Shown piece by piece: positions 6,451 to 23,133 of a DNA stretch of 64,000 nucleotides. Location: contig NZ_JAAGPD010000003.1 in NCBI RefSeq assembly GCF_017104565.1, positions 62,001-126,000 on the forward strand, read 5' to 3'. Below the pieces are notes generated by a model that worked only from the letters and a program-made list of their open reading frames with translations, did not search any database and was not told the DNA's origin. Origin of the DNA: Paraburkholderia sp. Tr-20389. Lineage in GTDB: Bacteria > Pseudomonadota > Gammaproteobacteria > Burkholderiales > Burkholderiaceae. How positions within the stretch are numbered: position 1 is the first letter of the stretch; each line of letters starts with the position of its first letter. The translations under genes were made by a program, and so were the position numbers.

Positions 6451-6545
6451 GTTTTTTGTCTGCGACGCAGTCGCCATCGTTTTTTGTCTGCGACGCAGTC
6501 GCCATTCTTGGGGGTGTTCGTTTTTGTCTGCGACGCAGTCGCCAT
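6451..6545 (+). repeat. three tandem copies of the element terminus
   Basis: The terminal unit (T-run, then GTCTGCGACGCAGTCGCCAT) occurs at 6451-6477, 6479-6505 and 6520-6545. The right end of the element has one inverted copy at 7246-7273. Only this copy of the element has a multiplied left terminus. Confidence 0.95.
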
Positions 6546-7130
6546 TTTGGGGTTTCTGGTTTTTTTAATCGCTGGCATCCGCGTTGTGGCTCTGGATTGC
6601 TGGCGTTGCCCCTGTGCGGGGCGGCACTCACTTTCTTTGCCGCCGCAAAGAAAGTAAGCAAAGAAAGCGGGCTCACACCGCCAATCCTTGTTCTTGCCTG
6701 CGGGCCCCCAACAGTTCTTACGCTCCACGTGGCAACGCGCTTGTTCGCGCCCGTTGCCAGCGTGCTAACTCACGCATCCCCCGCTTCACACTCCCGCGTC
6801 ACGGACTGCGTTACCAGACGTCCACGGCCGCCCAGGTGGCAAACTGTGTGCAGGCCATCGCGACGAAAGTGCACCACTCCGGACCGAAAAGCGGGATCGG
6901 CGTCGTAGAAGCGCGAACGCGTAAGGTGCGACAAGCTACACACGGTTTGCCACCTGGGCGGCGTAGACGAGTCGCTGCCGCTGGCTGCCTGCGGGTGACT
7001 GGAGCGGGTGATGCGCCTGTTCGAGGCGCTGGCAACGGGCGCAAACAAAGGCGTTGCCGCGTGAAGCGTAAGAACGGTTGGGGGCCCGCAGGCAAGCACA
7101 AGAGTTAGCGGTGTGAGCGGCTTTCTTTTG

Positions 7131-7164
7131 CCTACTTTTCTTTGCCGCGGCAAAGAAAAGTAGG
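7131..7164. repeat. 34-bp perfect palindrome inside element A
   Basis: CCTACTTTTCTTTGCCG is followed immediately by its exact reverse complement. It is the right-arm version of the hairpin block that reads ACTTTCTTTGC..GCAAAGAAAGT in the left arm, where the stem has a 4-nt loop. Confidence 0.97.
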
Positions 7165-7274
7165 TGCCGCCCCGCACAGGGGCAACGCCAGCAAACCAGA
7201 GCCACAACGCGGATGCCAGCGATTAAAAAAACCAGAAACCCCAAAATAGCGACTGCGTCGCAGACAAAAAAACC

Positions 7275-8123
7275 TTACTCGGCCGAATAAGTCTTCTGGG
7301 CTTGCTCACCAAGCCCTTCAATTCCGAGCCGTACAGTCTGCCCGGCCTTCAAATACACGGGCTCGGGCTTAACCCCCATCCCCACCCCCGGCGGCGTGCC
7401 GGTCGAAATCACATCACCCGGCTGCAGGCTCATACACTGCGACAGATAAGAAACCAGCTTGGCAACACCAAACACCATCGTCTTCGTGCTGCCATTCTGA
7501 TAACGATGCCCATCCACCTCGAGCCAAAGCTTCAAATTCTGCGGATCGGGCACCTCATCCCGCGTAACAACCCACGGACCGATCGGGCCAAACGTATCGA
7601 AGCCCTTGCCCTTGTCCCATTGACCCGCACGCTCGATCTGCCATTCGCGCTCCGATACGTCGTTGATCACGCAATAGCCCGCGACGTAATCGAGTGCATT
7701 CGCTTCGTCGACATACTTCGCTTCCTTGCCGATCACGACGCCCAGTTCGACTTCCCAGTCCGTCTTCTTCGAGCCGCGCGGAATCTCGATGCCGTCGTTC
7801 GGACCGACGATCGCGCTCGTCCACTTGTTGAAAACGACAGGCTCAGTCGGCACGGGCAGATTCGATTCGGCCGCATGGTCCGCGTAGTTCAGGCCGATAC
7901 ACACGAACTTGCCGATCTTGCCGACGCACGGCCCGATGCGCGGATTGCCTTCGACCACCGGCAGCGAGGCCGGATCGATCGCGCGCAGCTTCGCGAGCGC
8001 CCCGTCCGTCAACACGCTGCCGTCGATGTCGGCGACCACGTTCGACAGATCGCGAATCTTGCCTTGCGCATCCAGCAAGCCCGGCTTTTCCTGGCCCTTC
8101 GGTCCATAACGAAGCAGTTTCAT
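7275..8123 (-). CDS. fumarylacetoacetate hydrolase family protein, putative 2,4-diketo-3-deoxy-L-fuconate hydrolase
   Basis: The 282-aa protein has the FAH fold: FVCIGLNYADHAAE, then the metal-ligand region DWEVELGVVIGKEAKYV, VAGYCVINDVSEREWQ, KGFDTFGPIGPWVVT and DVISTGTPPGVGMG. This last operon gene would cleave the diketo acid to pyruvate and L-lactate, the last step of the non-phosphorylating L-fucose route. The role is inferred from the neighbours: an SDR, a lactonase and an aldo/keto reductase lie directly upstream on the same strand. GAGGAAAC precedes the ATG. Its stop codon lies one base from repeat element A, and no ordinary terminator is seen. Confidence 0.88.
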   Translation of the reverse strand: MKLLRYGPKGQEKPGLLDAQGKIRDLSNVVADIDGSVLTDGALAKLRAIDPASLPVVEGNPRIGPCVGKIGKFVCIGLNYADHAAESNLPVPTEPVVFNKWTSAIVGPNDGIEIPRGSKKTDWEVELGVVIGKEAKYVDEANALDYVAGYCVINDVSEREWQIERAGQWDKGKGFDTFGPIGPWVVTRDEVPDPQNLKLWLEVDGHRYQNGSTKTMVFGVAKLVSYLSQCMSLQPGDVISTGTPPGVGMGVKPEPVYLKAGQTVRLGIEGLGEQAQKTYSAE

Positions 8124-8180
8124 CGCTGCAGTTTCCTCTGTTCAGTGATTCCGTGGTTCATGAATGTCGATGCCGCGCGC

Positions 8181-8924
8181 TCAGTTCGACCAGCCGCCGT
8201 CGATCACATGCGCCTGGCCCGTCGTGAACGCCGACTCGTCCGACGCCAGATACAACGCCAGCGCCGCGATCTCCTCCGGCTTGCCGACACGGCCCATCGG
8301 CTGACGCGCGACGAACGCGGCATGCACCGCATCGACCGTCGAGCCCTGCGATTTCGCCTGTTCCGCAATGCGCTGTTCGAGCGAAGGCGAGTGTACCGTG
8401 CCCGGACAGATCGCGTTACAGCGCACGCCGCGTGTCACGAAGTCCGCAGCGACGGCCTTGGTCAAGCCGATGACAGCGGCTTTCGACGCACCATACACGA
8501 AGCGGTTCGGCACGCCCTTCACGCTCGACGCCGCCGACGACATGTTGATGATCGACCCGCCGCCCTTCTCCAGCATCGCAGGCAGGAACGCGCGGATCAT
8601 CCGGTACATCGCCTTCGCGTTCAGATCGAAGGCGAAGTCCCAATCCTCTTCGCTCGCTTCGAGAATCGAGCCCGCATGCACATAGCCCGCGCAATTGAAC
8701 AGCACATCGATCGGGCCGATCTCCTGCGCGAGCGCCTTGATCGCCGCACCGTCCAGCACATCCAGCGTGCGCGCTTCGACGGGCTTGTCCTTGAGCGCGT
8801 CGATGCGGATGTCGGTGGCGATGACGCGTGCGCCTTCGCGCGCGAAAAGCTCGGCCGTCGCGAGGCCGATGCCCTGTCCGGCCGCCGTGATCAAGGCCGT
8901 CTTCCCGGCCAGTCTTTGTACCAT
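8181..8924 (-). CDS. SDR family oxidoreductase, putative 2-keto-3-deoxy-L-fuconate 4-dehydrogenase
   Basis: This 247-aa classical SDR has TAAGQGIG (NAD-binding glycine motif, near residues 13-20), NCAG, a catalytic Ser in NMSSAAS, YGASK (catalytic Tyr/Lys) and NAICPGTVHSPS. An Asp follows beta-2 (ATDIR), which favours NAD over NADP. Members of this subgroup oxidise C4 of 2-keto-3-deoxy sugar acids in L-fucose pathways. The operon context fits that step, immediately before the FAH-type hydrolase (57-bp gap). Another hydroxy-acid substrate cannot be excluded from the sequence alone. Confidence 0.87.
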   Translation of the reverse strand: MVQRLAGKTALITAAGQGIGLATAELFAREGARVIATDIRIDALKDKPVEARTLDVLDGAAIKALAQEIGPIDVLFNCAGYVHAGSILEASEEDWDFAFDLNAKAMYRMIRAFLPAMLEKGGGSIINMSSAASSVKGVPNRFVYGASKAAVIGLTKAVAADFVTRGVRCNAICPGTVHSPSLEQRIAEQAKSQGSTVDAVHAAFVARQPMGRVGKPEEIAALALYLASDESAFTTGQAHVIDGGWSN

Positions 8925-9010
8925 TTAGCGCTCCCGTTGGATTGGCGTTTTGGTCATACCGGGTATTGCAACGACTGCTCACCGGCGCGAACGTGGAAAT
9001 CTCGATGTCG

Positions 9011-9841
9011 TCACAGGCGATAGAACGCCGCCGCATTGCCGCCGAAAATCGCATCGCGCTCGGCATCGGCAAGCGACGACAGCAAGAGCGTCGCGATCGA
9101 ATGCCATAGCAGATAGTCGCCGTTCAGGTTCAGCACGGGCCAGTCGCTGCCCCACATCAGACGCTTCGGCCCGAATGCCGCAAGCAGATGATCGACATAA
9201 GGACGCAGCGTCGCTTCCGTCCAGCCTTGCGCGGCCTCCGTCGCGAGTCCCGAGAGCTTGCAGTGCACATGCGGCAGCCTCGCGAGCCGCGTGATGCCCT
9301 CGGCCCACGCATGCCAGCCCGCGCTGCCGTCGCGAATCGGCGGCTTCGCGCCGTGATCGATCACGATACGCAACTGCGGAAAGCGCTCGATGAATGTTTC
9401 GAGCGCTTCGACGTGGCGCGTGAAGATCAACGCATCGAACGCGAGGTCGTTGGCGATCAATGCATCGACAGCGGGCTTCAATGCGGGATTCGCGATCCAG
9501 TGGTCGTCGGGCAGGTCTTGCAGCATCGGCCGCACGCCCTTGAATTTCGGCCTGTGCGCGAGTTCCGCGATCAATGCGGGTGCGTCGGGATCGAGCATCG
9601 GCACCCAGCCGACGACACCAGCAATCGACGTTTCATTGCTCGCGAGTTCGAGAAGATAGCGCGTCTCTTCGACGGTCGGCGCGGCCTGCACGACGACCGT
9701 GCGCGCCACGCCTGCGCGTTCGCGCAGCGGCGCCAGATCGGCAGGACCGAACGTGCGATAGAGCGCCGCGAGGTCCGGCGTCAGCCAGCCGTAATCGCCA
9801 CGCTCGGGGTTCCAGTAGTGCTGGTGGGCGTCGATTTGCAT
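9011..9841 (-). CDS. amidohydrolase-2 family lactonase, putative L-fucono-lactone hydrolase
   Basis: The 276-aa protein starts MQIDAHQHYWNP, the metal-binding His-x-His of the TIM-barrel amidohydrolase-2 family. It continues with FKGVRPMLQDLPDD, RIVIDHGAKPPI, HCKLSGLATEA and LMWGSDWPVLNL, which supply the later His and Asp ligands. L-fuconolactonases and related sugar lactonases have this pattern. It would open the lactone made by the aldo/keto reductase. Only 15 bp separate it from the reductase gene, so the two are likely co-translated. An 86-bp gap precedes the SDR. Confidence 0.87.
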   Translation of the reverse strand: MQIDAHQHYWNPERGDYGWLTPDLAALYRTFGPADLAPLRERAGVARTVVVQAAPTVEETRYLLELASNETSIAGVVGWVPMLDPDAPALIAELAHRPKFKGVRPMLQDLPDDHWIANPALKPAVDALIANDLAFDALIFTRHVEALETFIERFPQLRIVIDHGAKPPIRDGSAGWHAWAEGITRLARLPHVHCKLSGLATEAAQGWTEATLRPYVDHLLAAFGPKRLMWGSDWPVLNLNGDYLLWHSIATLLLSSLADAERDAIFGGNAAAFYRL

Positions 9842-9856
9842 GATGTGATCGAACCG

Positions 9857-10897
9857 CTAGTCCTTCGGCACGGGTGCGCGCGAATCGAGCAATCTTTTAT
9901 CGTGCAGCGCCTGCCAGAGTTCAGCGGGAATGGGCTTGTCGAACGAAGCCACATTCTCGCGCAGTTCGGCTGCATTGCGCGCGCCCGTCAGCACCGTGGC
10001 GACAGCGGGATGCGCATATGGAAACTGCAGCGCCGCAGCGGCAAGCGGTACGCCATGCACCTTGCACACGGCTTCGAGACGCGCGACGCGTTCGATCACT
10101 TCCTTCGGCGCCTCACCATAGTTGAACTTCAGATCGCCTTCAACGCCGCGCGCGAGAATCCCCGAGTTGAACGCACCACCCAGCAGAATGCTGACCTTGC
10201 GCTTCTCGCATTCGGGCAGCAGTTCGTCGAGCGTGCCCTGCTCGAGCAGCGTATAGCGGCCCGCAAGCAACGCGCAGTCGATGTCGAAATCGCGCATTGC
10301 ATCGAGGATCGCCGCGCCTTCGTTCACGCCGAGACCCACTGCCTTCACCACGCCTTGCGAGCGCAGATCGTCGAGCGCACGAAAGCCACCGCCTTGCGTC
10401 AGTTGTTGCCAGTAGTGCGCGTTGCGCTCGCCATGCGTCGCGACGCCGATGTCATGCACGAGCAGGATGTCGATCTCGACGATACCCATGCGCTGCTGGC
10501 TGTCTTCGAACGACCGCAAGATGCCGTCGTGCGTGTAGTCGTAGATTGCTTCGAAGGGCAGCGGGTTTTGCCAGCCTTCGCTGCCGTCATACGGATGCTT
10601 GCGCGGCACATAGTGGCGGCCGACCTTGGTCGACAGCACGAACTCATTGCGCGGATAGCGCCGCAGCGCATCGCCCAGGCGATGCTCGGCCTTCGTGTGC
10701 CCATAATGCGGCGCAGTATCGAAGTAACGCACGCCCGCGTCCCACGCGGCCTGAACGGCGCCGAACGCTTCTTCGTCCGACAGATCGCGGTAGAGTCCGC
10801 CGAGCGGCGCAGTGCCGAGACCGAGGCCCGTGACTTCGAGCGAGCGCTGTCCGATGCTGCGCCGCTTGCGCACGTTTGAACCTGCCGCATCCGTCAT
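9857..10897 (-). CDS. aldo/keto reductase, putative L-fucose (D-threo-aldose) dehydrogenase
   Basis: The 346-aa protein has the AKR catalytic set: Asp in YFDTAPHYGHTKAEHRLGDAL, the Tyr of PHYG, Lys in STKVGRHY and His in LLVHDIG. It resembles the D-threo-aldose/L-fucose 1-dehydrogenase group rather than the shorter aldose reductases. It would oxidise the sugar at C1 to the lactone. The start MTDAAGSNVRKRR at 10897 is supported by GGGAGAG; longer in-frame upstream sequence overlaps the preceding gene and looks non-native. It follows the large dehydratase subunit gene by 41 bp. Confidence 0.86.
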   Translation of the reverse strand: MTDAAGSNVRKRRSIGQRSLEVTGLGLGTAPLGGLYRDLSDEEAFGAVQAAWDAGVRYFDTAPHYGHTKAEHRLGDALRRYPRNEFVLSTKVGRHYVPRKHPYDGSEGWQNPLPFEAIYDYTHDGILRSFEDSQQRMGIVEIDILLVHDIGVATHGERNAHYWQQLTQGGGFRALDDLRSQGVVKAVGLGVNEGAAILDAMRDFDIDCALLAGRYTLLEQGTLDELLPECEKRKVSILLGGAFNSGILARGVEGDLKFNYGEAPKEVIERVARLEAVCKVHGVPLAAAALQFPYAHPAVATVLTGARNAAELRENVASFDKPIPAELWQALHDKRLLDSRAPVPKD

Positions 10898-10938
10898 CGT
10901 CTCGCTCTCCCTGTTCTTCAATGCGCCCAGTACGGCGT

Positions 10939-12246
10939 TCACTGCGCCGCCACGCTGACAACCCGATGCGGCAGCGCCGCATTCGAAGGCAGGCACGCGG
11001 GCCCGACCGGCTCGAACGTCTTGTACGTAAGGATAAACTCCTGGTGCCCGAGCGACTCCGATTTCGACGCCGCGCCTTGCGCGACGGCGAGCGTCAGGTC
11101 AAACACTTCGCGGCCCACTTCGTCGAGCGTCGCGCGGCCTTCAAGGATACGCCCTGCATCGACATCCATGTCGCCCGACAGATTGCGGTACGTGTTGGGA
11201 TTCGCGCAGACCTTGATGACGGGCGAAATCGCCGAGCCGACCACCGATCCGCGTCCCGTCGTGAACAAAATCACATGCGCGCCGCACGCGATCAGTTCGG
11301 CAATCTCCGCGTTGTCGCTGATGTTGGGAAAGCCGAAGCGCGGTTCGCCGTCGGGCACCACGTCGAGCAGATACAGGCCGCCCGTCGGCGGCACGTCGCC
11401 GGGCTTCACGATGCCGACGATCGGCGATGCGCCGCTCTTCGCATACGCGCCCAGCGATTTTTCTTCCTGCGTCGTCAGTCCGCCGTCCGCGTTGCCGGGT
11501 GCAAAGCTGCCATGGCCAAGTATCGTGTAATAGCGCGCAGCCTTCGCGACGCACGCGACGATTTCATCGCCGAGATCGTCGCGCGCCGCGCGGCTCTTCA
11601 TATGGAACTCGCAGCCGACCAGTTCGCCCGTCTCTTCGAAAATGCAGGTCGCGTCGTGTTCGATGAAATGATCGAATGCGCGGCCCACTGCCGGATTCGC
11701 GGTGATGCCGCTCGTGCCGTCCGAGCCTCCGCAGATCGTGCCGATCACGAGTTCGGACAGCGCCATCGGCACCTTCTGCTGTTTCGCGAGTTCGCCGCGC
11801 GCTTCACGCACCCAGTCGACGCCGTATTGAATCGTGCTGCGCGTGCCGCCCTTCTCTTGAATCGTCAGCACGTGCACGGGGCGGCCGCTCGCTCGCACGA
11901 CATCGACCAGATAGTGCTTGTTCATGCTCTCGCAACCGAGCGACACGAACAGCACCGCGCCGACGTTCGGATGCGTCGTCAGCTGCTCCATCATCTTTTC
12001 GGCGTAACTGTTCGGATAGCAGCCCGGAAAGCCGATCAGATGAACAGGCGCCTCGCGTTCGGTGGAGGCATCGTCGAACGCATCGAGCGACGGGCGAAAC
12101 TGCGCAACGATCTCGCGCGCCACGTGATGCGCGCATTCGACGAGATACGCCACCGCGACCACGTTGCGAATGCCCTTGCGTCCATCGCTGCGCAGAAAGC
12201 CTTGCAGCTCCGGCTGCGTTCCATTGGCTAAGGTAAGGTCGGTCAT
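10939..12246 (-). CDS. UxaA family dehydratase, large subunit (C-terminal UxaA domain), putative L-fuconate dehydratase
   Basis: The 435-aa protein matches the catalytic part of altronate/galactarate-type dehydratases. Visible blocks are GFLRSDGRKGIRNVVAVAYLVEC, HLIGFPGCYPNSYAEKM, LGCESMNKHYL, TIQEKGGTRSTI, TICGGSDGTSGITANPAVG, FEETGELVGCE and FTTGRGSVVGSAISPVIKVCANP. These enzymes bind a metal and remove water from sugar acids to give 2-keto-3-deoxy acids. Here the enzyme is split: the small SAF-type subunit gene lies 15 bp upstream. L-fuconate is inferred from context; in better-known fucose pathways this step uses an unrelated enolase-superfamily enzyme. Confidence 0.88.
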   Translation of the reverse strand: MTDLTLANGTQPELQGFLRSDGRKGIRNVVAVAYLVECAHHVAREIVAQFRPSLDAFDDASTEREAPVHLIGFPGCYPNSYAEKMMEQLTTHPNVGAVLFVSLGCESMNKHYLVDVVRASGRPVHVLTIQEKGGTRSTIQYGVDWVREARGELAKQQKVPMALSELVIGTICGGSDGTSGITANPAVGRAFDHFIEHDATCIFEETGELVGCEFHMKSRAARDDLGDEIVACVAKAARYYTILGHGSFAPGNADGGLTTQEEKSLGAYAKSGASPIVGIVKPGDVPPTGGLYLLDVVPDGEPRFGFPNISDNAEIAELIACGAHVILFTTGRGSVVGSAISPVIKVCANPNTYRNLSGDMDVDAGRILEGRATLDEVGREVFDLTLAVAQGAASKSESLGHQEFILTYKTFEPVGPACLPSNAALPHRVVSVAAQ

Positions 12247-12261
12247 GTTCTGTTCGCCCGT

Positions 12262-12579
12262 TCAGTGATGAACGAATGCGTGGCCTGCGTCGTGCGTATA
12301 CGTGGGCAGGTAATCGCTTTCGAGGTTGTGCGTATGCAGATGTTCGCCGCGCGCGACGTCGACGGTCACGTGGCCGATGACCGCGCCATAGCGCAGCACC
12401 TTTTCATCGGCATGCAGCGGGCGGCGCGCAAGCTTGTGGCCCAGTTCGATCGTCTTCGCGAGCGTCACGCGCTCGCCTTCGATGTCGATCTGCGTGCCGG
12501 CTTCCAGTCGCGCAGCGGCGATCAGGCAGTTGTCGTCGGGGCTCAGCAGAATGAGGCGTGCGTCCGTCGTGTCCGTCAT
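12262..12579 (-). CDS. UxaA family dehydratase, small subunit (SAF domain)
   Basis: The 105-aa protein corresponds to the N-terminal SAF domain of UxaA/GarD: LLSPDDNCLIAAARLEAGTQI, ERVTLAKTIELGHKLA and VLRYGAVIGHVTVDVARGEHLHTHNLESDY. The His-rich HLHTHN ending is typical. It is encoded separately from the catalytic subunit, as in many proteobacterial operons. The permease stop and this ATG are one base apart, so the catabolic and transport genes are one transcription unit. Confidence 0.88.
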   Translation of the reverse strand: MTDTTDARLILLSPDDNCLIAAARLEAGTQIDIEGERVTLAKTIELGHKLARRPLHADEKVLRYGAVIGHVTVDVARGEHLHTHNLESDYLPTYTHDAGHAFVHH

Positions 12580-12580
12580 G

Positions 12581-13606
12581 TCAGTTTTGTCCTTCGCCGC
12601 TGGCGAGTCGCGCGACCATCAGCGAGCCGAGAATGATGGCGCCGTAGATCGCCTGAATCCAGAACGACGGCACCTGTGCGAGCGTCAGCAGGTTCTGCAC
12701 GACGCCGAGCAGCAGCACACCCGAGAGCGCGCCGAGCATCGTGCCCTTGCCGCCATCGAGCGAAATGCCGCCGATCACCGCCGCCGCGAACACCGTGAAG
12801 ATCATCCCGTTGCCCTGATTCGCATTGATCGCGCCGACGTAACCCGTCACGACCAGTCCGCCGATCGACGCCAGCACGCTGCCGAGCACGAACACGCCCC
12901 ACGTGATGCGCTCGACGCGAATGCCCGCCGCGCGCGCCGCTTCCGGATTGCCGCCGATCGCATACAGCGCGCGGCCCAGCCGGTGATAGCGCAACATGAA
13001 CGCGGCGATGCCGAACGCGACTGCCGCGAGCCACACGGAGAGCGGCAGGCCGAACACGATGGTGGTCGCGAGCGCGAAGAACGACGGCGGCATGTCGAAC
13101 AGCGTGCCGCCCTTGGTCGCGCCGACCAGCATGCCGCGCAATACGATCAGCATCGCGAGCGTGACGATGAACGCGTTGAGCCGCAGCCGCACGACGAGAA
13201 AACCATTGATGAAACCGATCAGCGCGCCGACCACGACGATCGCCAGCAAGCCGGCAGCCGCAGGCCATTCGAAACCGAAACCCGCGGAAGCGGCGGGCAT
13301 CACTAGCATTGCACCGATGGCAGGTGCAATGCCGACCGTCGATTCGAGCGAAAGATCGAACTTGCCCGTCAACACGATCAGCGATTCGGCAAGCACGACG
13401 AGCGCCAATGCCGCCGACGCGCCCAGCACGCTGATCAGATTCGCCTTTGTCAGAAAGCTCGGGCTGACGAACGCCCCGATCACGATCAGCAACGCGAGCG
13501 CGGGCACCAGCGCGAGATCGCGCAGCCGCGCGAACTCGATGCGCGGACGCGCGGCGCTTGCGCCCATCCCTTGAGCCGAGGCAAACGCAGGCACACTATT
13601 CTTCAT
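12581..13606 (-). CDS. sugar ABC transporter permease (RbsC type)
   Basis: The 341-aa integral membrane protein has about 8-10 hydrophobic segments and the RbsC/BPD-transp-2 signatures VGIAPAIGAMLVM, GFINGFLVVRLRLNAFIVTLAM, ALYAIGGNPEAARAAGIRVE and AAAVIGGISLDGGKGTMLGA. It forms the inner-membrane channel with the ATPase encoded just upstream. The ATG at 13606 (MKNSVPAFASAQ) is preferred: GAAGGAG precedes it, and the alternative longer start is a TTG. It overlaps the 3' end of the ATPase gene by 11 bp, which suggests translational coupling. Confidence 0.92.
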   Translation of the reverse strand: MKNSVPAFASAQGMGASAARPRIEFARLRDLALVPALALLIVIGAFVSPSFLTKANLISVLGASAALALVVLAESLIVLTGKFDLSLESTVGIAPAIGAMLVMPAASAGFGFEWPAAAGLLAIVVVGALIGFINGFLVVRLRLNAFIVTLAMLIVLRGMLVGATKGGTLFDMPPSFFALATTIVFGLPLSVWLAAVAFGIAAFMLRYHRLGRALYAIGGNPEAARAAGIRVERITWGVFVLGSVLASIGGLVVTGYVGAINANQGNGMIFTVFAAAVIGGISLDGGKGTMLGALSGVLLLGVVQNLLTLAQVPSFWIQAIYGAIILGSLMVARLASGEGQN

Positions 13607-16280: not shown

Positions 16281-16302
16281 ATTGGTGCATGCATTCACCA
16301 AT
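16281..16302. promoter_or_regulatory. palindromic operator candidate of the sugar operon
   Basis: A 22-bp sequence with outer arms ATTGGTG and CACCAAT, palindromic at 20 of 22 positions, lies midway between the binding-protein start (16168) and the IclR start (16409). Position, size and symmetry fit the site of a dimeric regulator, most simply the adjacent IclR protein. Confidence 0.6.
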
Positions 16303-16325
16303 GAACGTATTATTCATATACGAAC
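16303..16325. promoter_or_regulatory. second imperfect dyad next to the operator candidate
   Basis: GAACGTAT, seven bases, then ATACGAAC starts one base after the 22-bp palindrome. Pairing is 6 of 8. It may be a second, weaker regulator site or part of the promoter of either divergent gene. The region is AT-rich compared with its surroundings. Confidence 0.35.
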
Positions 16326-16408
16326 TTTTCGAAGTCAACGAGCGTGGGGTGGGTGTTTTCCCTGGAGCGCTCTGCCCTGTGTGACAGTCCTTTGACGGCC
16401 GATAATCG

Positions 16409-17221
16409 ATGCGAATGTCAAACACCAACCGACTGCTGACGATGGACGTGGAAGAGAAGGACGACGCCGACCGTTATCGGGCGCCTGCGCTCGACAAGGG
16501 TCTGGACATACTGGAGCTGCTTGCGGAGCAGAAGAGCGGGCTGACGCGCGCCGAGATCACGAAGCTATTGGGGCGCAACGCTAGCGAGATGTACCGGATG
16601 CTGGAGCGGCTGGTAGCGCGTCAGTACGTGGTGCGATCGGCGGGGGGCGACCGCTATTCGTTGAGCTTGAAGCTGTATGCGCTTGCGCATCGGCATCCGC
16701 CGATGAACCGGCTGATTTCCGAGGCGTTACCGCTGATGCAGCGCTTCGCGACGGAAGCCGAGCAGTCTTGTCATCTGGCCGTCTACGATCGCGGCAATCT
16801 GCTGGTGATTGCGCAGGTGGATGGGCCGGGCACGTGGGGTATTTCGGTGCGGCTTGGCTCGCGGGTCGGTTTGATTGATACGAGTTCGGGGCGGACGATG
16901 CTGGCGTTTCAGACGCTCGAGCAGCGTGAGCATATGCTTGCCGAGCATACGAAGGTCAAAGGCGAAGTGACCATCGATCACAGCGCGCTTGAGGCCGCTT
17001 GCGCGGCGATTCGTGGTGCCGGTTTTTCGCAGAAGGATAGTCAGCAGATTTTTGGTGTCACCGACTTGACGTTTCCGTTGCTGACGGCTTCCGGGCAGGC
17101 TATTGCTGCCATGACTTGTCCGTATCTCAAGCGGATCGATGAGTATGTTGCACCTTCTCTCGATGAGGTTACCGGGATGTTGAGGGAGATTGTGCAGGGG
17201 CTTTCTATGTTTGCTGAGTAG
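16409..17221 (+). CDS. IclR family transcriptional regulator
   Basis: The 270-aa protein has an N-terminal winged helix (LDKGLDILELLAEQKSGLTRAEITKLLGRNASEMYRMLERLVARQYV, about residues 26-75). A C-terminal IclR effector domain follows, with CHLAVYDRGNLLVIAQV, GSRVGLIDTSSGRTMLAFQ and AACAAIRGAGFSQKDSQQIFGVTDLTFPLL. It is divergent from the sugar operon, so it probably senses a pathway sugar acid and controls it. ATGs at 16409 and 16415 are both possible; neither has a strong ribosome site. The stop codon (17219-17221) is directly followed by repeat element B. Confidence 0.9.
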   Translation: MRMSNTNRLLTMDVEEKDDADRYRAPALDKGLDILELLAEQKSGLTRAEITKLLGRNASEMYRMLERLVARQYVVRSAGGDRYSLSLKLYALAHRHPPMNRLISEALPLMQRFATEAEQSCHLAVYDRGNLLVIAQVDGPGTWGISVRLGSRVGLIDTSSGRTMLAFQTLEQREHMLAEHTKVKGEVTIDHSALEAACAAIRGAGFSQKDSQQIFGVTDLTFPLLTASGQAIAAMTCPYLKRIDEYVAPSLDEVTGMLREIVQGLSMFAE

Positions 17222-18045
17222 CTTTTTTTGTCTACGACGTAGTCGTCATATTTGCCTTCTCGGCGCGGGCTACGCCTTCTGGGTTTTGCTCTGCGCTCTG
17301 CGCTTTCGCTGTCGCTGTCGCTGGCATCCGCGTGATGTCTTCGTACTTCATGCGTTGCCCCTGTGCGGGGCGGCACTCACTTTCTTTGCCGCCGCAAAGA
17401 AAGTAAGCAAAGAAAGCGGGCTAACCCCGCCAGTGCTTGTTGTTGCCTGCGGGCCCCCAACAGTTCTTACGCTTCACGCGGCAACGCCTTTGTTTGCGCC
17501 CGTTGCCAGCGCCCTGAACAGGCGCATCACCCACTCCAATCACCCGCAGGCAAGCCAGCGGCAGCGACTCGTCAGCGCCGCCCAGGTGGCAAACTGTGTG
17601 TAGGTAATCGCACCACATGCGTTCGCGATCCTACGACACCGATCCCGGTTTTCGGTCCGGAGTGGTGCACTTCCATCGCGACGGCCTACACACAGTTTGC
17701 CACCTGGGCGGCCGCGAACGCCTGGTAACGCGGCCCGTGACGTGAGAGTGTGAAGCGGGTGATGCGCCTGTTCAGGGCGCTGGCAACGGGCGCAAACGGG
17801 CGTGTTGCCGTGTGGAGCGTAAGAACTGTTGGGGGCCCGCAGGCAAAAACAAGGACTGGCGGTGTGAGCCCGCTTTCTTTGCTTACTTTCTTTGCGGCGG
17901 CAAAGAAAGTAAGTGCCGCCCCGCACAGGGGCAACGCATGAAGTACGAAGACATCACGCGGATGCCAGCGAAAGCGAAAGCGCCAGCGCCCGCGCCACCG
18001 CAGAGCAAAACCCAACCGGCGTAGCCCGCGCCGAGAAGGCAAAAC
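17222..18045. repeat. giant inverted-repeat element, copy B
   Basis: It has the same block order as copy A, starting at the base after the IclR stop. The inner stem is a perfect 26-bp inverted repeat (17579-17604 with 17685-17710) around an 80-nt loop (17605-17684). That loop is the same sequence as in copies A and C but in inverted orientation, about 85 percent identical by eye to copy A. The copy-specific outer spacer (CTTCTCGGCGCGGGCTACGCC) is present in both arms, near 17256-17276 and 18018-18038. The terminal T-run/GTCTACGACGTAGTC hairpin is on the left only. The rest of the gap to 18110 holds only the presumed promoter of the next gene. Confidence 0.94.
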
Positions 18046-18110
18046 CGAATACGCTAAAATACCGCCCCGCCCAAACCGCAAACCCCAAATTGCGCCCACT
18101 CGCAAACCAA

Positions 18111-18653
18111 ATGGCAAAACTCCTCTCAGACCTCGAATTCCAGCGCTTTTCCGAACTCCAGCAAAAGCAGGCAAGCTTCACCATCACCGCCGAAGAAGCC
18201 GACGAACTCCGCGAAATCGTTTCTCGCGCGCAGCAAAAACGCGATGACCGCGCCACCGCAATGAAGCAGATCGAAACCTTCATCGCACAGTTCGACATCA
18301 GCCCCGACGAACTCTTCTCCGCCGATCAGATCGGCGACGCCGCCCGTAACTTCGGTCTGATCCCGGCCGCGAAGAAAGAGCGCGTGCTGCCGCCCACGGT
18401 AACCTTCAACGGCAAGCCGTATCAATGGACCCGCGCGTTGCCCGATGAAGTGCGCCTGCCGCTCTTCGAAGCGTTCTCGGCGGGACAATCGGTGAAGTCG
18501 TTCATCGCCACCCCCAAAGACGCCATGCGCTGCGCAGCAACCATCGCGCGTCTGGAACGCGAAACGGGCGCAACGTATGCAGCCGAGTGGCTCGACGAAC
18601 TCGCCGTCTCGCGCGAACAGGTGGACGCAGCCTCGGCAAAGCTCGCGGCCTAA
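18111..18653 (+). CDS. hypothetical protein, 181 aa
   Basis: I do not recognise a family with confidence. The start MAKLLSDLEFQRFSEL at 18111 is chosen because upstream in-frame residues are translated repeat DNA. The N-terminal 75 residues are helical and charged (EEADELREIVSRAQQKRDDRATAMKQIETFIAQFDISPDELF), loosely recalling the oligomerisation region of H-NS-like proteins. The C-terminal half (PPTVTFNGKPYQWTRALPDEVRLPLFEAFSAG) has no RGR-type DNA-binding motif. It is convergent with the acetyltransferase gene, 30 bp away, and its promoter must lie in or beside the right end of repeat element B. Confidence 0.7.
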   Translation: MAKLLSDLEFQRFSELQQKQASFTITAEEADELREIVSRAQQKRDDRATAMKQIETFIAQFDISPDELFSADQIGDAARNFGLIPAAKKERVLPPTVTFNGKPYQWTRALPDEVRLPLFEAFSAGQSVKSFIATPKDAMRCAATIARLERETGATYAAEWLDELAVSREQVDAASAKLAA

Positions 18654-18683
18654 GAGCATTCACCCGCAGCGCACGCGCGCGAC

Positions 18684-21107
18684 CTAGCGTGTGTTGGCAG
18701 AACATGAAGGCGACGCGCCGAACCCCGGTGCGCCGCCTTTTTGTTTGCCGTCGTCGGGCTGTTCGAGCGCCATCCTGAAGCCGACGACGCCCGGATCGTC
18801 GGTGCGCGACGTCGTAAAACCGACAGCCGTCGCGAGGCCGATCATCGCGGAGTTCTCGCGCAGCGCCTCGCCGACGATCCAATGCGTACCGCGCGCCCGC
18901 GCGTACGCGATGATCCGCTCCATCAACAGTCGCCCCAACCCTCTGCCCTTCTGATCCGAACGCACGGCCATCGCGAACTCGGCCGTTTCGTTGTCGGGAT
19001 CGGCGACCGCACGCACCACGCCCAGCGTGTGCGTCGTGCCGTCGTCGTTCTGCGTCGTCGCGATCAACGCCATCTCGCGGTCATAGTCGATCTGCGTCAT
19101 GCGCGCGAGTTGCGAATGATCGAAGCTGCCGACCGCACCGAAAAACCGCAGACGCAGATCGTCGGGTGTCATCGACTCGACGAACTCGCGATGCGCCGCT
19201 TCGTCTTCGGGACGAATCGGCCGCACCGTGATGCGCTGGCCGCGCCAGTCGAGCGTCTCTTCGTAGCGTCGCGGATACGGCATGATCGCGAAGCGCGTCC
19301 GGTTCGCCGACAACCGCAGACGCGGCGCGACGATGGCCGCGCCGTTTCTCATCACGCGCAACGCCAGGTTCAACGACACGATCTCGCGTATCTCCGACAC
19401 CGCCTGCGAAATCGCCGTGAATGCGTTCAGCACGGGCTCGGGCGCGACCTCGCGGAAGTAGGCCGAGTTCGACAGGATGTCGCGCGACAGCACGGGATTC
19501 AGCGGCGGCAGGCCGAACACGCACATCGGCCGCGCTTCGTCGTGCTCGGGCGGCGCGGTAAAGCGGAACACGGGGCCGAAGTTGTCGTCGTCGCGCAGTT
19601 CGACGCCGATGTCGACGACGGCTTGCTCGCGCGCGTCGTCGGGAACGGTGCGAAGGCCGAAGTGCGCAAGCAGCCGCGCCGCATCGTCACCGTCGAGTTC
19701 CGTTACGCCCGACGATAGCGCCGCGCACGCCTGCGCCTGCGCGGCATCGATCGATTCGGGCACGCGCGCGGGCTGGCCTTCTGGTGTCTGCATCAGCAGT
19801 TCGCGCACAAGCCGATATTCGACCAGACGCTCGAACGCGCGCGCAAGCCGCTGCGGCGTGGTGTGAACGGGAATGCCGTGCTCGTGCAACGCGTCCCGCG
19901 TCTCGCGCTTCACCCCGCCGAAAAAGCACGCGAGCAGCCCGCGATACGCGTAGCGCTGATTCGCGATCAGCGCCTGCGCGACTTCTTCGACGGGCGCGCT
20001 GTGCGTCGACGCGTGCACGACGAACGCCGTGCCCGTCGAACGATGGTCGGCCAGAACCTTGATCGCTGAGCCGAAATGCTCGGCGCGCGCGTCACTTCCG
20101 AGCAGCAGCGGATTGCCGGGCCTGGCGCGCGGCAACGCCTGCGCGAGCGCTTCGACAGCGCCTGACGGGCACGGCGCGAGCGTATCGCCGGCGGCTTTGA
20201 AGGCGTCGGTGGCGAGCGTCGCGACGCCGCGGTCGCTCGTAATCAGCGTCGCCGTCGCGCCCGCAGCGACGCGGCCCACGCCGAGCGTTTCGATTTCGTC
20301 GAGCAGGTCGTCGAGCGCGTCGACGCGCACCACGCCCGCGCGGCGAAAAGCGGCTGTGTAGAGCGCGTCGTCGGGATCGCTGCGGCCCGAACGCAAGGCC
20401 AGCACCGGCTTGTTGCGCGCCGCCGCCCGTGCCGCCGACATGAACTTGCGCGCAGCCTTCACGGAGTCCACTTCGAGCAGGATCGCTCGCGTGCCGGCGT
20501 CGCTGGCGAGATAGTCGAGCACGTCACCGGCATCGACGTCGGCTTCGTCGCCGAGCGCGACCGCGTGCGAGAAGCCGAGGCCGCGCGCGTGCGCCCAGCC
20601 GAGCACCGCGTTCGTCAACGCGTTCGACTGCGACACCCAGGCGACGCCGCCCGCCCGCACCGTGACGGAAGGCGCACCCAGATGCGCCTTGAGCGCGGGC
20701 GTCACGATGCCAAGGCTGCCCGGCCCGACGATGCGCAGCAGATGCGGGCGCGCGGCAGCGAGCGTGTGGCGCACATCGGCGCGGCCTTCTTCGCCGCGCA
20801 CTTCGCCGACGATGATCGCCGCCCGCGTGCCGCGCCCGCCGAGCGCATGGACGATGCCGGGCCACGTCGACGAGGGCGTGCAGATGATCGCGACGGTGGG
20901 CGCGTCGGGCAGATCGCCCGCGTTGCCGACGCATGCGTGACCGTCGAGCATGTCGTACTTCGGATTGACGGCCCACGCGGGACCGTCGAAGCCGCCTTCG
21001 ATCAGCCGCTTCCAGACCATCGCGCCCGTGCTGCCCTGGCGGTTCGAGGCGCCGATCACAGCAACGGATTTCGGACGAAACAATGCATCGAGGTTGCGTA
21101 CGGTCAC
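18684..21107 (-). CDS. Pat/YfiQ-like protein: CoA-binding/succinyl-CoA-ligase-like domains plus C-terminal GNAT acetyltransferase
   Basis: The 807-aa protein begins with a CoA-binding Rossmann domain (NLDALFRPKSVAVIGASNRQGSTG). A succinyl-CoA-ligase-like region follows (GPGSLGIVTP, VAWVSQSNALTNAVLGWA, FSHAVALGDEADVDAGDVLDYLA). A short remnant of the ATP-grasp region comes next, and a GNAT domain with RSDQKGRGLGRLLME, its acetyl-CoA loop, ends the protein. Such proteins acetylate lysines of enzymes such as acetyl-CoA synthetase. The GTG at 21107 is taken as start: it has GCGGAG upstream and gives the usual TVRNLDALF N-terminus; an ATG at 21173 is the alternative. About 60 residues of the ATP-grasp core appear to be missing. 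Confidence 0.85.
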   Translation of the reverse strand: MTVRNLDALFRPKSVAVIGASNRQGSTGAMVWKRLIEGGFDGPAWAVNPKYDMLDGHACVGNAGDLPDAPTVAIICTPSSTWPGIVHALGGRGTRAAIIVGEVRGEEGRADVRHTLAAARPHLLRIVGPGSLGIVTPALKAHLGAPSVTVRAGGVAWVSQSNALTNAVLGWAHARGLGFSHAVALGDEADVDAGDVLDYLASDAGTRAILLEVDSVKAARKFMSAARAAARNKPVLALRSGRSDPDDALYTAAFRRAGVVRVDALDDLLDEIETLGVGRVAAGATATLITSDRGVATLATDAFKAAGDTLAPCPSGAVEALAQALPRARPGNPLLLGSDARAEHFGSAIKVLADHRSTGTAFVVHASTHSAPVEEVAQALIANQRYAYRGLLACFFGGVKRETRDALHEHGIPVHTTPQRLARAFERLVEYRLVRELLMQTPEGQPARVPESIDAAQAQACAALSSGVTELDGDDAARLLAHFGLRTVPDDAREQAVVDIGVELRDDDNFGPVFRFTAPPEHDEARPMCVFGLPPLNPVLSRDILSNSAYFREVAPEPVLNAFTAISQAVSEIREIVSLNLALRVMRNGAAIVAPRLRLSANRTRFAIMPYPRRYEETLDWRGQRITVRPIRPEDEAAHREFVESMTPDDLRLRFFGAVGSFDHSQLARMTQIDYDREMALIATTQNDDGTTHTLGVVRAVADPDNETAEFAMAVRSDQKGRGLGRLLMERIIAYARARGTHWIVGEALRENSAMIGLATAVGFTTSRTDDPGVVGFRMALEQPDDGKQKGGAPGFGASPSCSANTR

Positions 21108-21494
21108 GGGCGCTCCGCAGTGAGGTGAGTGCGCGCTTCGGGCACAGCGATGGCGCGCGATTTCATCAGTCATCAGGATAGGCGATGAGCGGGGACGTCG
21201 CGATGTCAGCCTGAAGCACGCGCCGGTTCGGGCCCCGCTGCGCCCGCCCGCATCCATCTGATGTTAGCGCATGGCTTCCGGACGAAAGCGCTGCCGGCGA
21301 CGCGACAAAGGCACGCGGCCGCTGACGCCGCACCTGACGCAGCATGTAGAATCGCCCCACTGCTCGCGGCGACGCTTCCCGCTGCGACGCGACGTGACAC
21401 GCGGTGGCGTGCCGCGCGTCGATACGCGGAGCGCGCCTGCCGGCCACCGGCCGCGGGCGAGTCAGAGAAGAACGAAGAGACTGAAGGAAGATTT
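21108..21494. other. intergenic region between divergent acetyltransferase and LysR genes
   Basis: This 387-bp gap must carry both promoters. I see no convincing -35/-10 pair, hairpin or clear LysR-type T-N11-A operator. The sequence is as GC-rich as coding DNA, and open frames in it have no ribosome site. Confidence 0.5.
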
Positions 21495-22364
21495 ATGCGG
21501 CGTTTGCCCTCGCTGATCGCGTTGCGCTTTTTCGAAGAAACGGCACGGCACATGAGTTTCAACCGCGCCGCCGTCGCGCTGTGCGTCACGCAGGGCGCGG
21601 TCAGCCGGCAGATCAAGATTCTCGAGGAGTCGCTCGGCGCAAAGCTTTTCGAGCGAGATCACAAGGGCATCCGTCTGACGAAGGCGGGCCAGCAGTTGTT
21701 GCCGTGCGTGTCGGAAGCGTTCGATACGCTCGAACGCGGCACGCGCCAGGTGACGACGGCAAAGGGCCGCCGGCGACTGGTGCTGTCGGTGCCGCCGACT
21801 TTCGCGACTCAATGGTTTTCGCCGCGACTCGGCTCGCTGGCCGTCGAGTTGCCGGACGTCGAGCTGTCCGTGCGCACGGAGCCTACCGACGACTGCCACT
21901 GCAACATCCGCTTCGGCCGCGACGCCCTGCACGATGCGCATTCCGAGTTGCTGATGATCGAGCGGCATACGCTGGTCGGTGCGCCGCGTTTCGGCGGCGA
22001 GCCGCTGGACAAGCTGCTGGAGACGCTGCCCGCGCTGCACGTCCTGCACAACGATGCGCGTTTGAATCTGTGGCCGGATTGGCTCGATAAGGCTGGCTTG
22101 CCTGCGAAGTATGGCGAGAACGGGATCGAGTTCTCGACGCTCGAACAGGCGATTCACGCGGCGCGCAAGGGTGTGGGACTCGCAGTCGTCGATCGGAATA
22201 TGATCGTCGAGGAGTTGGGCGAGGGTAGTCTCGCTTTCATGTCGGATATCGAGGTTAGTGGACCCTACGGGTATTGGCTCGATATCGGGCCGCGCCATGA
22301 GGCGCTTGAGCATGTGCAGGCTTTTGCTGGGTGGTTGCGGGAGCAGGTTTTGAGTATGTCCTGA
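21495..22364 (+). CDS. LysR family transcriptional regulator (GcvA-like)
   Basis: The 289-aa protein has an N-terminal winged HTH (LPSLIALRFFEETARHMSFNRAAVALCVTQGAVSRQIKILEESLGAKLFERDHKGIRLTKAGQQLLP), which is the GcvA/AmpR-type spacing. A LysR substrate-binding domain follows with the GcvA-like closing region (EFSTLEQAIHAARKGVGLAVVDRNMI). GAAGGAAG precedes the ATG at 21495. It is divergent from the acetyltransferase gene, which may be its target. Its TGA is followed directly by the T-run of repeat element C. Confidence 0.9.
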   Translation: MRRLPSLIALRFFEETARHMSFNRAAVALCVTQGAVSRQIKILEESLGAKLFERDHKGIRLTKAGQQLLPCVSEAFDTLERGTRQVTTAKGRRRLVLSVPPTFATQWFSPRLGSLAVELPDVELSVRTEPTDDCHCNIRFGRDALHDAHSELLMIERHTLVGAPRFGGEPLDKLLETLPALHVLHNDARLNLWPDWLDKAGLPAKYGENGIEFSTLEQAIHAARKGVGLAVVDRNMIVEELGEGSLAFMSDIEVSGPYGYWLDIGPRHEALEHVQAFAGWLREQVLSMS

Positions 22365-23133
22365 TTTTTTTTCTGCGACGTAGTCGCCATTCTGGTTTTT
22401 TTGCTGGCGAGCGCCTTTTGTTCGCTGGCATCCGCGGTTTGCTTCTGGTTTGCTGGCGTTGCCCCTGTGCGGGGCGGCACTTACTTTCTTTGCCGCCGCA
22501 AAGAAAGTAAGCAAAGAAAGCGGGCTCACACCGCCAATCCTTGTTTTTGCCTGCGGGCCCCCATCAGTTCTTACGCTCCACGCGGCAGCACGCTTGTTTG
22601 CGCCCGTTGCCAGCGTGCTAACTCACGCATCACCCGCTTCACACTCCCGCGTCACGGACCGCGTTACCAGACGTTCGCGGCCGCCCAGGTGGCAAACTGT
22701 GTGTAGGCTGTCGCGATGGAAGTGCACCACTCCGGACTGAAAAGCGGATCGGTGTCGTAGAAGCGCCAACGCATACGGCGCGACAACCTACACACCGTTT
22801 GCCACCTGGGCGGCGCAAACGAATTGCTGTCGCTGGCTGTACTACGGGTGATTGGAGCGGGTGATGCGCCGGTTCAAGGCGCTGGCAACGGGCGCAACAC
22901 AATGTGTTGCCGTGTGGAGTGCGGGACCCGTAGGGGGCCCGCAGGCAAGCACAAGAGCTAGCGGTGTTAGCGGCTTTCTTTTGCCTACTTTTCTTTGCCG
23001 CTGCAAAGAAAAGTAGGTGCCGCCCCGCACAGGGGCAACGCCTGAACGCAGACATGAAATCGCGGATGCCAGCGAAAAAAAAAGCGCTCGCCAGCAAAAA
23101 AAACAGCATGGCGACTGCGTCGCAGACAAAAAC
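22365..23133. repeat. giant inverted-repeat element, copy C
   Basis: The element is about 769 bp and occupies the whole gap between the LysR stop (22362-22364) and the prfC stop (23134-23136). The inner stem (22682-22707 with 22787-22812) has one mismatch around a 79-nt loop in the same orientation as copy A. Both ends carry the T-run/GCGACG..GTCGC terminal unit. The outer spacer (TTTTTGCTGGCGAGCGC) is specific to this copy and present in both arms. The block order is the same as in copies A and B. Confidence 0.95.

Follow-up and report, generated by a model that had tools for sequence, protein, structure and literature searches.

Related palindromes and intergenic repeats

SbcD is a subunit of the canonical palindrome nuclease, and the long-palindrome sites on which SbcCD acts in E. 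coli are reportedly engineered. The elements described here share with those sites an interrupted palindrome that provokes inverted rearrangement, but they are natural, numerous and mostly found in genomes without SbcD above the family cut-off (compared with the available part of PMC3315005).

In the accessible part of PMC3733652, REP units are described as 20-40 bp long; they end in a GTAG or CGTC tag, and many have a RAYT gene as neighbour. The present elements resemble REP/BIME sequences in being dispersed, non-coding, intergenic, hairpin-forming palindromes with many copies, and differ from them, as described there, in their size (0.6-0.8 kb), in their multi-block layout, in that no neighbouring RAYT gene was found, and in a surrounding halo of skewed base composition. 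The TIR families of TIRtrons in the same part of that source are likewise long terminal inverted repeats that also occur dispersed; in the present loci, as far as examined, no tyrosine transposase gene was seen between the arms. The RU repeats of enterobacteria have units of 103-168 bp (available part of PMC2759123), and Ype and Efa repeats lie preferentially near gene 3' ends (available part of PMC1590033). These are also intergenic repeats with inverted-repeat character, but neither a modular arrangement of arms and centre nor a halo is mentioned in the available parts of the two sources. The E. coli intrastrand-triplex motif TM/BoxC is a structured intergenic repeat linked to local rearrangement between strains, a tie shared by the present elements, whose K block might form a triplex, judging by the geometry of its purine tract; TM/BoxC is, however, a short motif and no giant palindrome (PMC4666352, as far as available). 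"Burkholderia" does not occur in the available main text of that paper. The first-pass annotation considered it possible that the elements are simply unnamed. This agrees with a scan of the 64 kb window (the whole stretch of DNA analysed), where nothing reaches the gathering score of an Rfam family, and with the absence of any published description of the family within the reach of the literature search.

Three copies in the window

Three large inverted repeats had been recognised in the window, and they are borne out by their inverted arms and by predicted folds far more stable than shuffled sequence. Their features are as follows.

6451-7273 (no strand): copy 1, palindromic element, from direct sequence reading and inverted-repeat comparison
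6462-6542 (+): copy 1 outer left module, three T-run and GCGAC..GTCGC hairpins (6462-6474, 6490-6502, 6530-6542)
6570-6583 (+): copy 1 left-arm U block CGCTGGCATCCGCG, mate 7208-7221
6608-6622 (+): copy 1 left-arm H hairpin GCCCCTGTGCGGGGC, mate 7169-7183
6628-6657 (+): copy 1 left-arm K hairpin, core 6636-6649, mate core 7141-7154
6827-6962 (+): copy 1 inner stems (6827-6844 / 6945-6962) and conserved loop (loop motif 6869-6884)
17222-18045 (no strand): copy 2, palindromic element, centre reversed relative to copies 1 and 3
17319-17371 (+): copy 2 left-arm U (17319-17332) and H (17357-17371), mates 17957-17970 and 17918-17932
17577-17712 (-): copy 2 inner stems and loop, loop motif 17655-17670 on the minus strand
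22365-23133 (no strand): copy 3, palindromic element, from direct sequence reading and inverted-repeat comparison
22423-22475 (+): copy 3 left-arm U (22423-22436) and H (22461-22475), mates 23061-23074 and 23022-23036
22680-22814 (+): copy 3 inner stems (22680-22697 / 22797-22814) and loop motif (22722-22737)

Copy 1 lies between convergent genes for a 4HBT thioesterase (5990-6448, +) and an FAA hydrolase (7275-8123, -), and copy 3 between convergent genes for a LysR-type protein (21261-22364, +) and RF3 (23134-24741, -). Copy 2 follows an IclR-type gene (16409-17221, +) and precedes a co-directional 180-aa gene (+, ATG at 18111). Repeat comparison gives inverted arms of 239 nt at 92% identity in copy 2 (17300-17538/17751-17989), of 114 nt at 96% and 112 nt at 85% in copy 1, and of 57-112 nt at 74-89% in copy 3; between the three copies, same-position matches reach 67-93% over 201-300 nt. 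The predicted RNA folds have energies of -582, -684 and -542 kcal/mol for copies 1 (6521-7270), 2 (17226-18043) and 3 (22366-23132), against means of -289, -330 and -292 kcal/mol for 20 mononucleotide shuffles per copy.

The blocks named in the first-pass annotation are present and in order, except that the T-run/GCGAC hairpin is not a fixed terminus: three occur on the left of copy 1, copy 2 carries a diverged form on its left and none on its right, and genome-wide this hairpin is one among a pool of outer modules. Similarly, each copy does have paired arms around a central loop, with the correction that the centre of copy 2 is inverted. The elements also appear gene-free as claimed, since the longer open frames that overlap them, six in all (two per copy), have no Pfam match at E 0.01.

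Architecture and distribution of the family

Counts of sequence patterns less controls, in which not every copy was read, give about 120 copies in this genome of approximately 9 Mb, and the family occurs in most tested genomes of the Paraburkholderia-type genus, as the annotation had thought possible. The fixed architecture extends well beyond the first three loci: of the 92 copies that were read, 83-92 carry any given main arm block, at a nearly fixed offset. The K block is a near-invariant hairpin of 14-15 bp with two compensated variants, and its stem is uninterrupted in 272 of 283 parsed distinct arms, where 256 of 539 H matches had no parsable K hairpin. The H and K blocks are inverted in the two arms and constitute terminal inverted repeats common to the copies, although they are subterminal and the outer ends vary. 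The distance from H to H is 575-585 bp in the G000, G020 and G001 regions and 446-598 bp in other species, compared with 20-40 bp for a REP unit, which upholds the statement that the elements are far larger than REP/BIME. The centre varies between species while the arm blocks are kept, showing conserved hairpin arms around an exchangeable centre. That the elements are chance palindromes or assembly artefacts can be dismissed, as several species, sequenced in several projects, share the layout in complete as well as draft genomes.

Neighbouring genes and terminator-like sequence

The elements prefer gaps between convergent genes. With gene directions taken from a simple ORF/GC3 caller, both neighbouring genes point inward at 56 of the 92 copies, one at 30 and neither at three, with three unclear. 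Of 184 arms, 143 have a T-run of at least five that faces inward and four have one that faces outward. The suggestion that the elements process transcripts has only indirect support, in that 105 of 184 arms carry terminator-like sequence inward and only two outward; however, 50 of 184 are already terminator-like in shuffled inward sequence.

A composition halo around the elements

Each element is flanked on both sides by an excess of G+T on the strand that runs 5'->3' toward its arms, which decays with distance and reaches about 1 kb on each side. The GT fraction is 0.73 at the edge and falls to about 0.51 beyond 1.3 kb. For the 92 copies, 184 flanks give 0.732 at a distance of 260-300 nt from the inner stem and 62 flanks give 0.520 at 1.4-1.6 kb, compared with 0.498-0.502 at random positions. 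This halo, absent from the first-pass annotation, is the most unusual feature of the family. It is present in every other sequence set tested, other centre types included. In a scan for converging GT skew whose windows include the arms, the elements take the top ranks in the window (3/3) and in C44 (5/5), and account for 9/9 within the top 14 in G020, 6/6 within the top 13 in G001 C2 and 5/6 within the top 7 in G001 C3. One-armed copies are skewed on their outer side only (five copies and five others).

The halo is visible at third codon positions and has the same sign in both gene orientations, and it is the element, not gene direction, that sets this sign. Where the gene points away from the element, third-position GT on the inward strand still declines from 0.711 to 0.567 (37 flanks); the halo is weaker and shorter there, which hints at a part for transcription. 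Stalled replication forks would be expected to skew a single side and were rejected as the only cause: both flanks exceed 0.5 GT in 96% of the 92 copies (47% of single baseline windows exceed it). Selection for Chi or another motif was likewise rejected, as no octamer is clearly enriched. The Chi sequence counted was the E. coli octamer, which may not be the Chi of Burkholderiales: seven inward and two outward occurrences in 119,600 nt show no clear enrichment (0.058 per kb inward versus backgrounds of 0.047 and 0.030 per kb on the two strands).

Filled and empty orthologous sites

A comparison of loci with and without the element, proposed in the first-pass annotation, shows both kinds of orthologous site: in searches of 59 genomes per locus, with the best 30 loci of each read, presence or absence is species-specific, and empty sites have little or no halo. 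G001 is filled at the copy 2 site and G067 at the copy 3 site. In the last 300 nt of the LysR-type gene beside copy 3, third-position GT is 0.73 in three filled species and 0.549 in 27 empty ones; the corresponding values for the IclR-type gene beside copy 2 are 0.801 (seven filled) and 0.563 (23 empty). Within 1.2 kb in the RF3 gene, inward-strand differences from the empty orthologue comprise 44 C>T and 18 T>C.

For five sites (ten flanks), two of whose "empty" gaps hold other DNA, the count was restricted to 60-nt bins of 65% identity or more. Empty-to-filled differences at 0-300 nt are 123 C>T versus 14 T>C, 69 A>G versus 22 G>A and 66 C>G versus 22 G>C. C>T exceeds T>C in 10/10 flanks within 1.2 kb, and the two approach each other farther out (86 versus 63 at 1-1.5 kb; 97 versus 90 at 2.2-3 kb). 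A single episode of mutagenesis at insertion was rejected for copy 2: at 34 sites that are mostly C in empty species, T occurs in anywhere from 0 to 7 of the seven filled species, often by sub-clade, and is common to all seven at four of these sites.

Third-position divergence near copy 3 is 0.378 versus 0.232 upstream in two filled species, one of three having dropped out, and 0.445 versus 0.454 in empty ones. Near copy 2, it is 0.300 versus 0.265 upstream in filled and 0.417 versus 0.352 in empty species. Between two near-identical isolates, SNPs reach a density of 0.0156 in the first 150 nt beside an element, a zone that is largely non-coding, and of 0.0063-0.0068 beyond; at 150-400 nt the density is ordinary. 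Consequently, hypermutation is not clearly supported, as copy 2 divergence does not exceed that of empty species and SNP density at 150-400 nt is unremarkable. Polarised SNPs at 0-400 nt comprise 8 C>T, 10 T>C, 15 G>A and 0 A>G, those at 400-1500 nt 45, 16, 38 and 14, respectively, and a strand-specific C>T excess near elements is absent among the 53 polarised SNPs within 400 nt.

Recombination and rearrangement

The proposal that the elements are recombination sites is supported by two isolates that are 99% identical. From 20 and 19 paired loci, some of them one element in both orientations, 16 pairs with both flanks matched were kept; four of these 16 have interiors that diverge by 9-23% between flanks that are 98.4-100% identical, through replacement or partial inversion. 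No donor of the replaced interiors was found among the copies compared, which came from one replicon. In addition, the isolates differ by an inversion of approximately 10 kb, which in one of them has elements at both breakpoints. The elements thus show the excess of exchange and rearrangement expected of recombination hotspots.

Correction between the arms of one copy was rejected as the dominant force, as block 125-205 shows no within-copy association (671/1000 shuffles at or above the observed value). The inner arms show a deficit (1000/1000 shuffles), spacer 222-245 an excess (0.698 versus 0.632; 0/1000) and the H block a very small excess (0.976 versus 0.973; 9/1000). Outer modules score 34.7 on average within a copy and 27.6 between copies, with the own arm best in 6/92 cases and among the top three in 11.

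SbcD lies above the cut-off in only 6 of 59 genomes of the genus, and not in this genome. Loss of SbcCD as a permissive condition was nevertheless rejected as not clean: G067 has SbcD over the cut-off and filled sites, and G002, G013, G015 and G018 also combine SbcD over the cut-off with arm-block matches.

Mobility and origin

Of the idea that the elements are non-autonomous mobile DNA, dispersal is supported by the filled and empty sites. Neither an own transposase nor an autonomous copy was seen in the fetched loci, and no clear target-site duplication was seen by eye in five filled/empty comparisons, where the outer boundary is not definable and the element occupies most of the intergenic DNA. 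In three G020 copies, an IS5-like gene interrupts the K block at exactly the same position and looks like a later insertion. A phage origin was rejected, as a search of 50,697 phage records gave no match at E 1e-5. A RAYT drive is not supported: the only PF01797 (Y1_Tnp) match in the genome is weak (26.6 bits; cut-off 23), its 3.3 kb locus contains no H, K, stem or T-hairpin block, and no repeat-flanked RAYT gene of the REP/BIME kind was therefore found.

Dispersed, species-specific insertions and conserved inverted arm blocks around variable centres would suit an ordinary MITE-like non-autonomous transposon with an unrecognised transposase, in which the arms are terminal inverted repeats and the halo a by-product. 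This explanation is improbable in view of the unseen transposase, the apparently late arrival of the IS5-like gene, the block-free locus of the one weak Y1_Tnp gene and the lack of a clear target duplication in the sites read.

Possible origins of the halo

The reading tentatively preferred, though it falls a little short of an even chance, is that the elements are dispersed, non-coding palindromes prone to recombination, with arms that leave the 3'-ended strand of the flank exposed. The arms would extrude as hairpins and be recurrently broken or processed, and repair would leave the adjoining DNA single-stranded on the 3'-ended strand. Deamination-type changes (C>T, A>G) or conversion bias on the exposed strand could then build the halo over species time, while ectopic repair that draws on other copies would preserve the genome-wide similarity of arms and loop. 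The outer T-rich modules might also terminate transcription of both facing genes, and convergent gaps could conceivably be favoured or tolerated for that reason. In favour of breakage are the retention of the K hairpin via compensated variants, the replaced interiors, the element-bounded inversion, the raised divergence near copy 3 and the raised SNP density within 150 nt. Against it stand the one-armed copies, which have no inner halo although a simple symmetric break would give one, the missing C>T excess among polarised SNPs, the divergence at copy 2, the weaker halo of outward genes, the lack of clear Chi enrichment, the failure to find a donor among the copies of one replicon, and SbcD that exceeds the cut-off in few genomes of the genus and not in this one. 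A broader proposal, possible if on the doubtful side, is that a polar hairpin arm, alone or paired with an inverted partner, directs strand-specific processing to the flank outside it, and that this processing rewrites composition over about 1 kb, whichever way the gene points, throughout the genus; such arms would be a new element class.

Transcription offers a somewhat unlikely alternative, in which the arms are strong terminators or road-blocks, halted RNA polymerase leaves the non-template (inward) strand exposed to accumulate C>T and A>G, and the elements insulate convergent genes from each other in both directions. The gene orientations, the inward bias of T-runs and terminator-like sequence, the outer-side skew of one-armed copies and the larger effect for inward genes all fit, as do the inward-strand C>T and A>G changes, which have the sense expected on a non-template strand. 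For outward genes this model predicts no halo or a reversed one, yet their flanks remain GT-rich inward; the effect is only slight (0.549, against 0.487 upstream) in empty copy 3 orthologues, some of which have ordinary terminator hairpins, and shuffled sequence already yields many terminator-like arms. RecA prefers GT-rich DNA, and a fixation bias would have selection or biased repair (e.g., RecA pairing) favour a poorly folding, GT-rich inward strand because of its use to the element's recombination or to facing transcripts. The lack of mutational asymmetry in recent SNPs, the copy 2 rate that does not exceed that of empty species and the C>G transversions that share the bias (66 versus 22) point this way. 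We nonetheless regard it as quite unlikely: the halo spans about 1 kb of unrelated coding genes at codon positions 1, 2 and 3, there is no motif or clear Chi enrichment, divergence is raised near copy 3 in two filled species, and the SNP sample is small (53 polarised within 400 nt).

If the halo is a repair footprint, each such genome would contain over a hundred natural break-and-repair sites, bacterial resection polarity and tract length would be measurable from sequence alone, and the question would arise of how such large palindromes are tolerated. If polar arms are responsible, the halo would be a natural, genome-wide and readable footprint of directional single-strand exposure in bacteria; if transcription is, it would represent an unusually strong strand-asymmetry effect at paired terminators. 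With either cause, position alone biases the codon usage and amino acids of neighbouring genes and could mislead analyses of horizontal transfer or selection. By arithmetic, GT at first and second codon positions is about 0.57 near the elements and 0.51 far from them.

Architecture and size of the element family

The sequence confirms the three palindromes that the first-pass annotation had located in the window, one of which adjoins a conserved protein:

6451–7273, copy 1, palindromic element
17222–18045, copy 2, palindromic element
18111–18653, + strand, 180-aa protein adjoining copy 2, conserved in its relatives and without a Pfam match
22365–23133, copy 3, palindromic element

The kinship and palindromic character claimed for these copies also hold: the match between inverted arms and the similarity among copies both greatly exceed chance, and their folding energies are about twice those of shuffled sequence. 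The proposed fixed internal architecture stands for the order of blocks along the arms, which had been read correctly in all three copies, but not for the outermost hairpin as a fixed end, which is variable; additionally, the centre of copy 2 is inverted relative to those of copies 1 and 3. The copies were described as gene-free, and the six open frames that overlap them have no Pfam match. The window has no Rfam match.

The architecture extends well beyond these loci. In a search of the strain's own assembly (8,997,065 bases, 129 contigs), 40 of 151 candidates were scored, and each of these 40 matches no less than about 85% of the query, with 83–100% identity. A stem pattern occurring twice per copy gives 279 matches (33 in the reversed control), and a loop pattern occurring once per copy gives 137 (15 in the control). 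Since these counts agree, the family total is about 120 copies. The 991 kb contig C19 holds 2 of 100 loop matches listed (137 in all), below its share of the genome, suggesting that the copies may be unevenly spread.

Reading of 91 loci yielded 92 parsed copies, across which arm blocks Q, P, H, and U are kept at an offset from the inner stem that is constant within two to four bases (5th–95th percentile). Counted per side, each block is present in 83 to 92 of the 92 copies; 74 copies carry the full set of eight, four on each side. Left/right polarity is fixed across copies at inner arm positions 1–125, and at positions 125–225 left and right are alike across the family. Of 539 distinct H matches collected from all loci, 283 gave a parsable K hairpin and 256 did not; the stem of this hairpin is an uninterrupted 14 or 15 bp in 272 of the 283, with paired changes distinguishing two versions of it. 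The K block also contains two AAAGAAA purine tracts beside a pyrimidine tract, and an intrastrand triplex might form from them.

On contig C115, identically oriented element centres at 169018 and 169620, separated by about 600 bp, apparently make up a compound element. Head-to-tail tandem units containing U are stacked outside an arm elsewhere, mostly on one side.

Tandem units outside an arm (L, locus)
U-spacer-H units, about 72 and 104 bp: L029 1100–1620 (own genome, C128); P. largidicola PGU16, C2 (reversed region), near 60957 and 76237
Shorter U repeats: L076 and L080

The GT halo

The elements are surrounded by a halo, an excess of GT on the strand that reads 5' to 3' into the element. 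Inward-strand GT falls with distance from the inner stem, from 0.732 at 260–300 nt to 0.604 at 400–500 nt and 0.547 at 800–900 nt (184 flanks each), reaching 0.520 at 1.4–1.6 kb (62 flanks), and is flat around random control positions. In inward-pointing genes (144 flanks), the share of C at third codon positions is 0.12 near the element and 0.38 far from it, and that of T is 0.34 and 0.13; in outward-pointing genes (37 flanks) the sign of the halo is unchanged, but the halo is weaker and shorter. The curve is repeated in PGU16, 22B1P, and PGU19, in regions of the close relative G020 and of G001 (the PGU16 genome), in Ac-20365 (47 elements, 94 flanks) and BCC1885 (5 elements), and in small sets from other species with other centres. 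One-armed copies show the skew on the outer side only (5 + 5 others, with different filters for the two sets). When sequence is scanned simply for converging GT skew, the elements come out top in the window (3/3) and in a 347 kb contig (5/5); in three other regions they are among the highest peaks, not always first.

Orthologous sites lacking the element (empty) carry the halo only slightly. Third-position GT over the last 300 nt is 0.801 in filled species versus 0.563 in empty orthologues for copy 2, and 0.73 versus 0.549 for copy 3. Within 300 nt, empty-to-filled differences comprise 123 C>T against 14 in reverse, 69 A>G against 22, and, among transversions, 66 C>G against 22 and 49 G>T against 22. 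Farther out, C>T stands at 86 versus 63 (1–1.5 kb) and 97 versus 90 (2.2–3 kb).

Candidate causes of the halo

Polarised SNPs between isolates PGU16 and 22B1P (outgroup for 26 of 32 flanks) show no surplus of C>T close to elements (53 SNPs, up to 400 nt away), and third-position divergence near copy 2 is not raised beyond the level in empty species. Near copy 3 it is raised (0.378 versus 0.232; two filled species), and SNPs have a density of 0.0156 in the first 150 nt from an element, a largely non-coding interval, and 0.0063–0.0068 beyond. C-to-T states at copy 2 are spread over sub-clades, and the skew has therefore accumulated over species time. The halo is real, and with these results against a mutational cause three readings of its origin are ranked.

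Break repair is ranked first as a tentative choice. Transcription, ranked second, is a rather unlikely source; the non-template strand undergoes deamination. Fixation bias, ranked third, is improbable; RecA prefers GT-rich DNA.

Genomic position, gain, and loss

By the directions that a simple gene caller assigns, 56 of 92 copies have both neighbouring genes facing the element, 30 have one, and 3 have neither; 3 are unclear. In the annotated 50 kb of one relative, a hand count gives 5 convergent pairs among 43 neighbouring gene pairs; two of its three elements occupy convergent gaps and the third a divergent one. T runs of at least 5 in the outer arms point inward in 143 of 184 cases and outward in 4, and terminator-like hairpins (n = 184) inward in 105 and outward in 2; the inward sequence gives 50 when shuffled.

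Among the best 30 loci from 59 genomes per site, 3 are filled and 27 empty for copy 3, and 7 are filled and 23 empty for copy 2. In each of two sets of empty sites read, two hold an ordinary terminator-like hairpin, and no target duplication could be defined from comparison of filled and empty sites. An IS5-like insertion sequence (317-aa transposase) lies at an identical point inside the K block of three G020 copies, and in a copy at L435 28189–29953 an annotated IS5 transposase also separates the arms. IS5 seems to favour the K hairpin as a target.

IS5-like insertions in the K block (G020, C3; left arm twice, right arm once)
~1357693, L184
~1417520, L187
~1605808, L197

Distribution across genomes

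The possibility that such elements are common in Paraburkholderia was borne out: with up to nine candidates scored per genome in 60 genomes, matches occur in 30 of 36 of the same genus (own included) and in 2 of 24 from other genera of the order, both weak (E 8e-12 and 2e-8). Among the matches listed, the centre is common only to the close relatives G020, G001, G005, and G021; in the remaining genomes the arm block goes with another centre, in some as a single arm. An exact-pattern scan of named genomes found at least 80 loci, all those listed being in Paraburkholderia or 'Burkholderia sp.' records, and Ac-20365 holds most of the 80 listed. Nine plasmid records match (seven Paraburkholderia, two Caballeronia), all of 1.1–2.6 Mb, and none of the phage records searched does. 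No description of the family was recognised in searches of the open-access literature; one may exist in a subscription journal or a genome report.

Recombination and nuclease background

PGU16 and 22B1P are about 99% identical and share 16 comparable orthologous copies. The interiors of four diverge by 9–23% between flanks of at least 98.5% identity (98.4–100% over all 16); about 270 nt fits only when inverted in one of the four, as does the central ~120 nt in another. The two isolates also differ by an inversion of about 10 kb, with elements at both breakpoints in 22B1P; at the second breakpoint PGU16 has about 14 kb present, its second element included. The edges of this disrupted stretch keep a GT skew at a distance from an intact element, with peaks at 355035 and 368451.

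SbcD, a subunit of the palindrome nuclease SbcCD, scores above cut-off in 6 of 59 genus genomes; in the strain's own genome none exceeds the cut-off of 77.65, and the best partial match is 52 bits. This scarcity may be a reason that such palindromes persist. However, G067 has both SbcD above cut-off and filled sites, and arm-block matches occur in four others of the six genomes.
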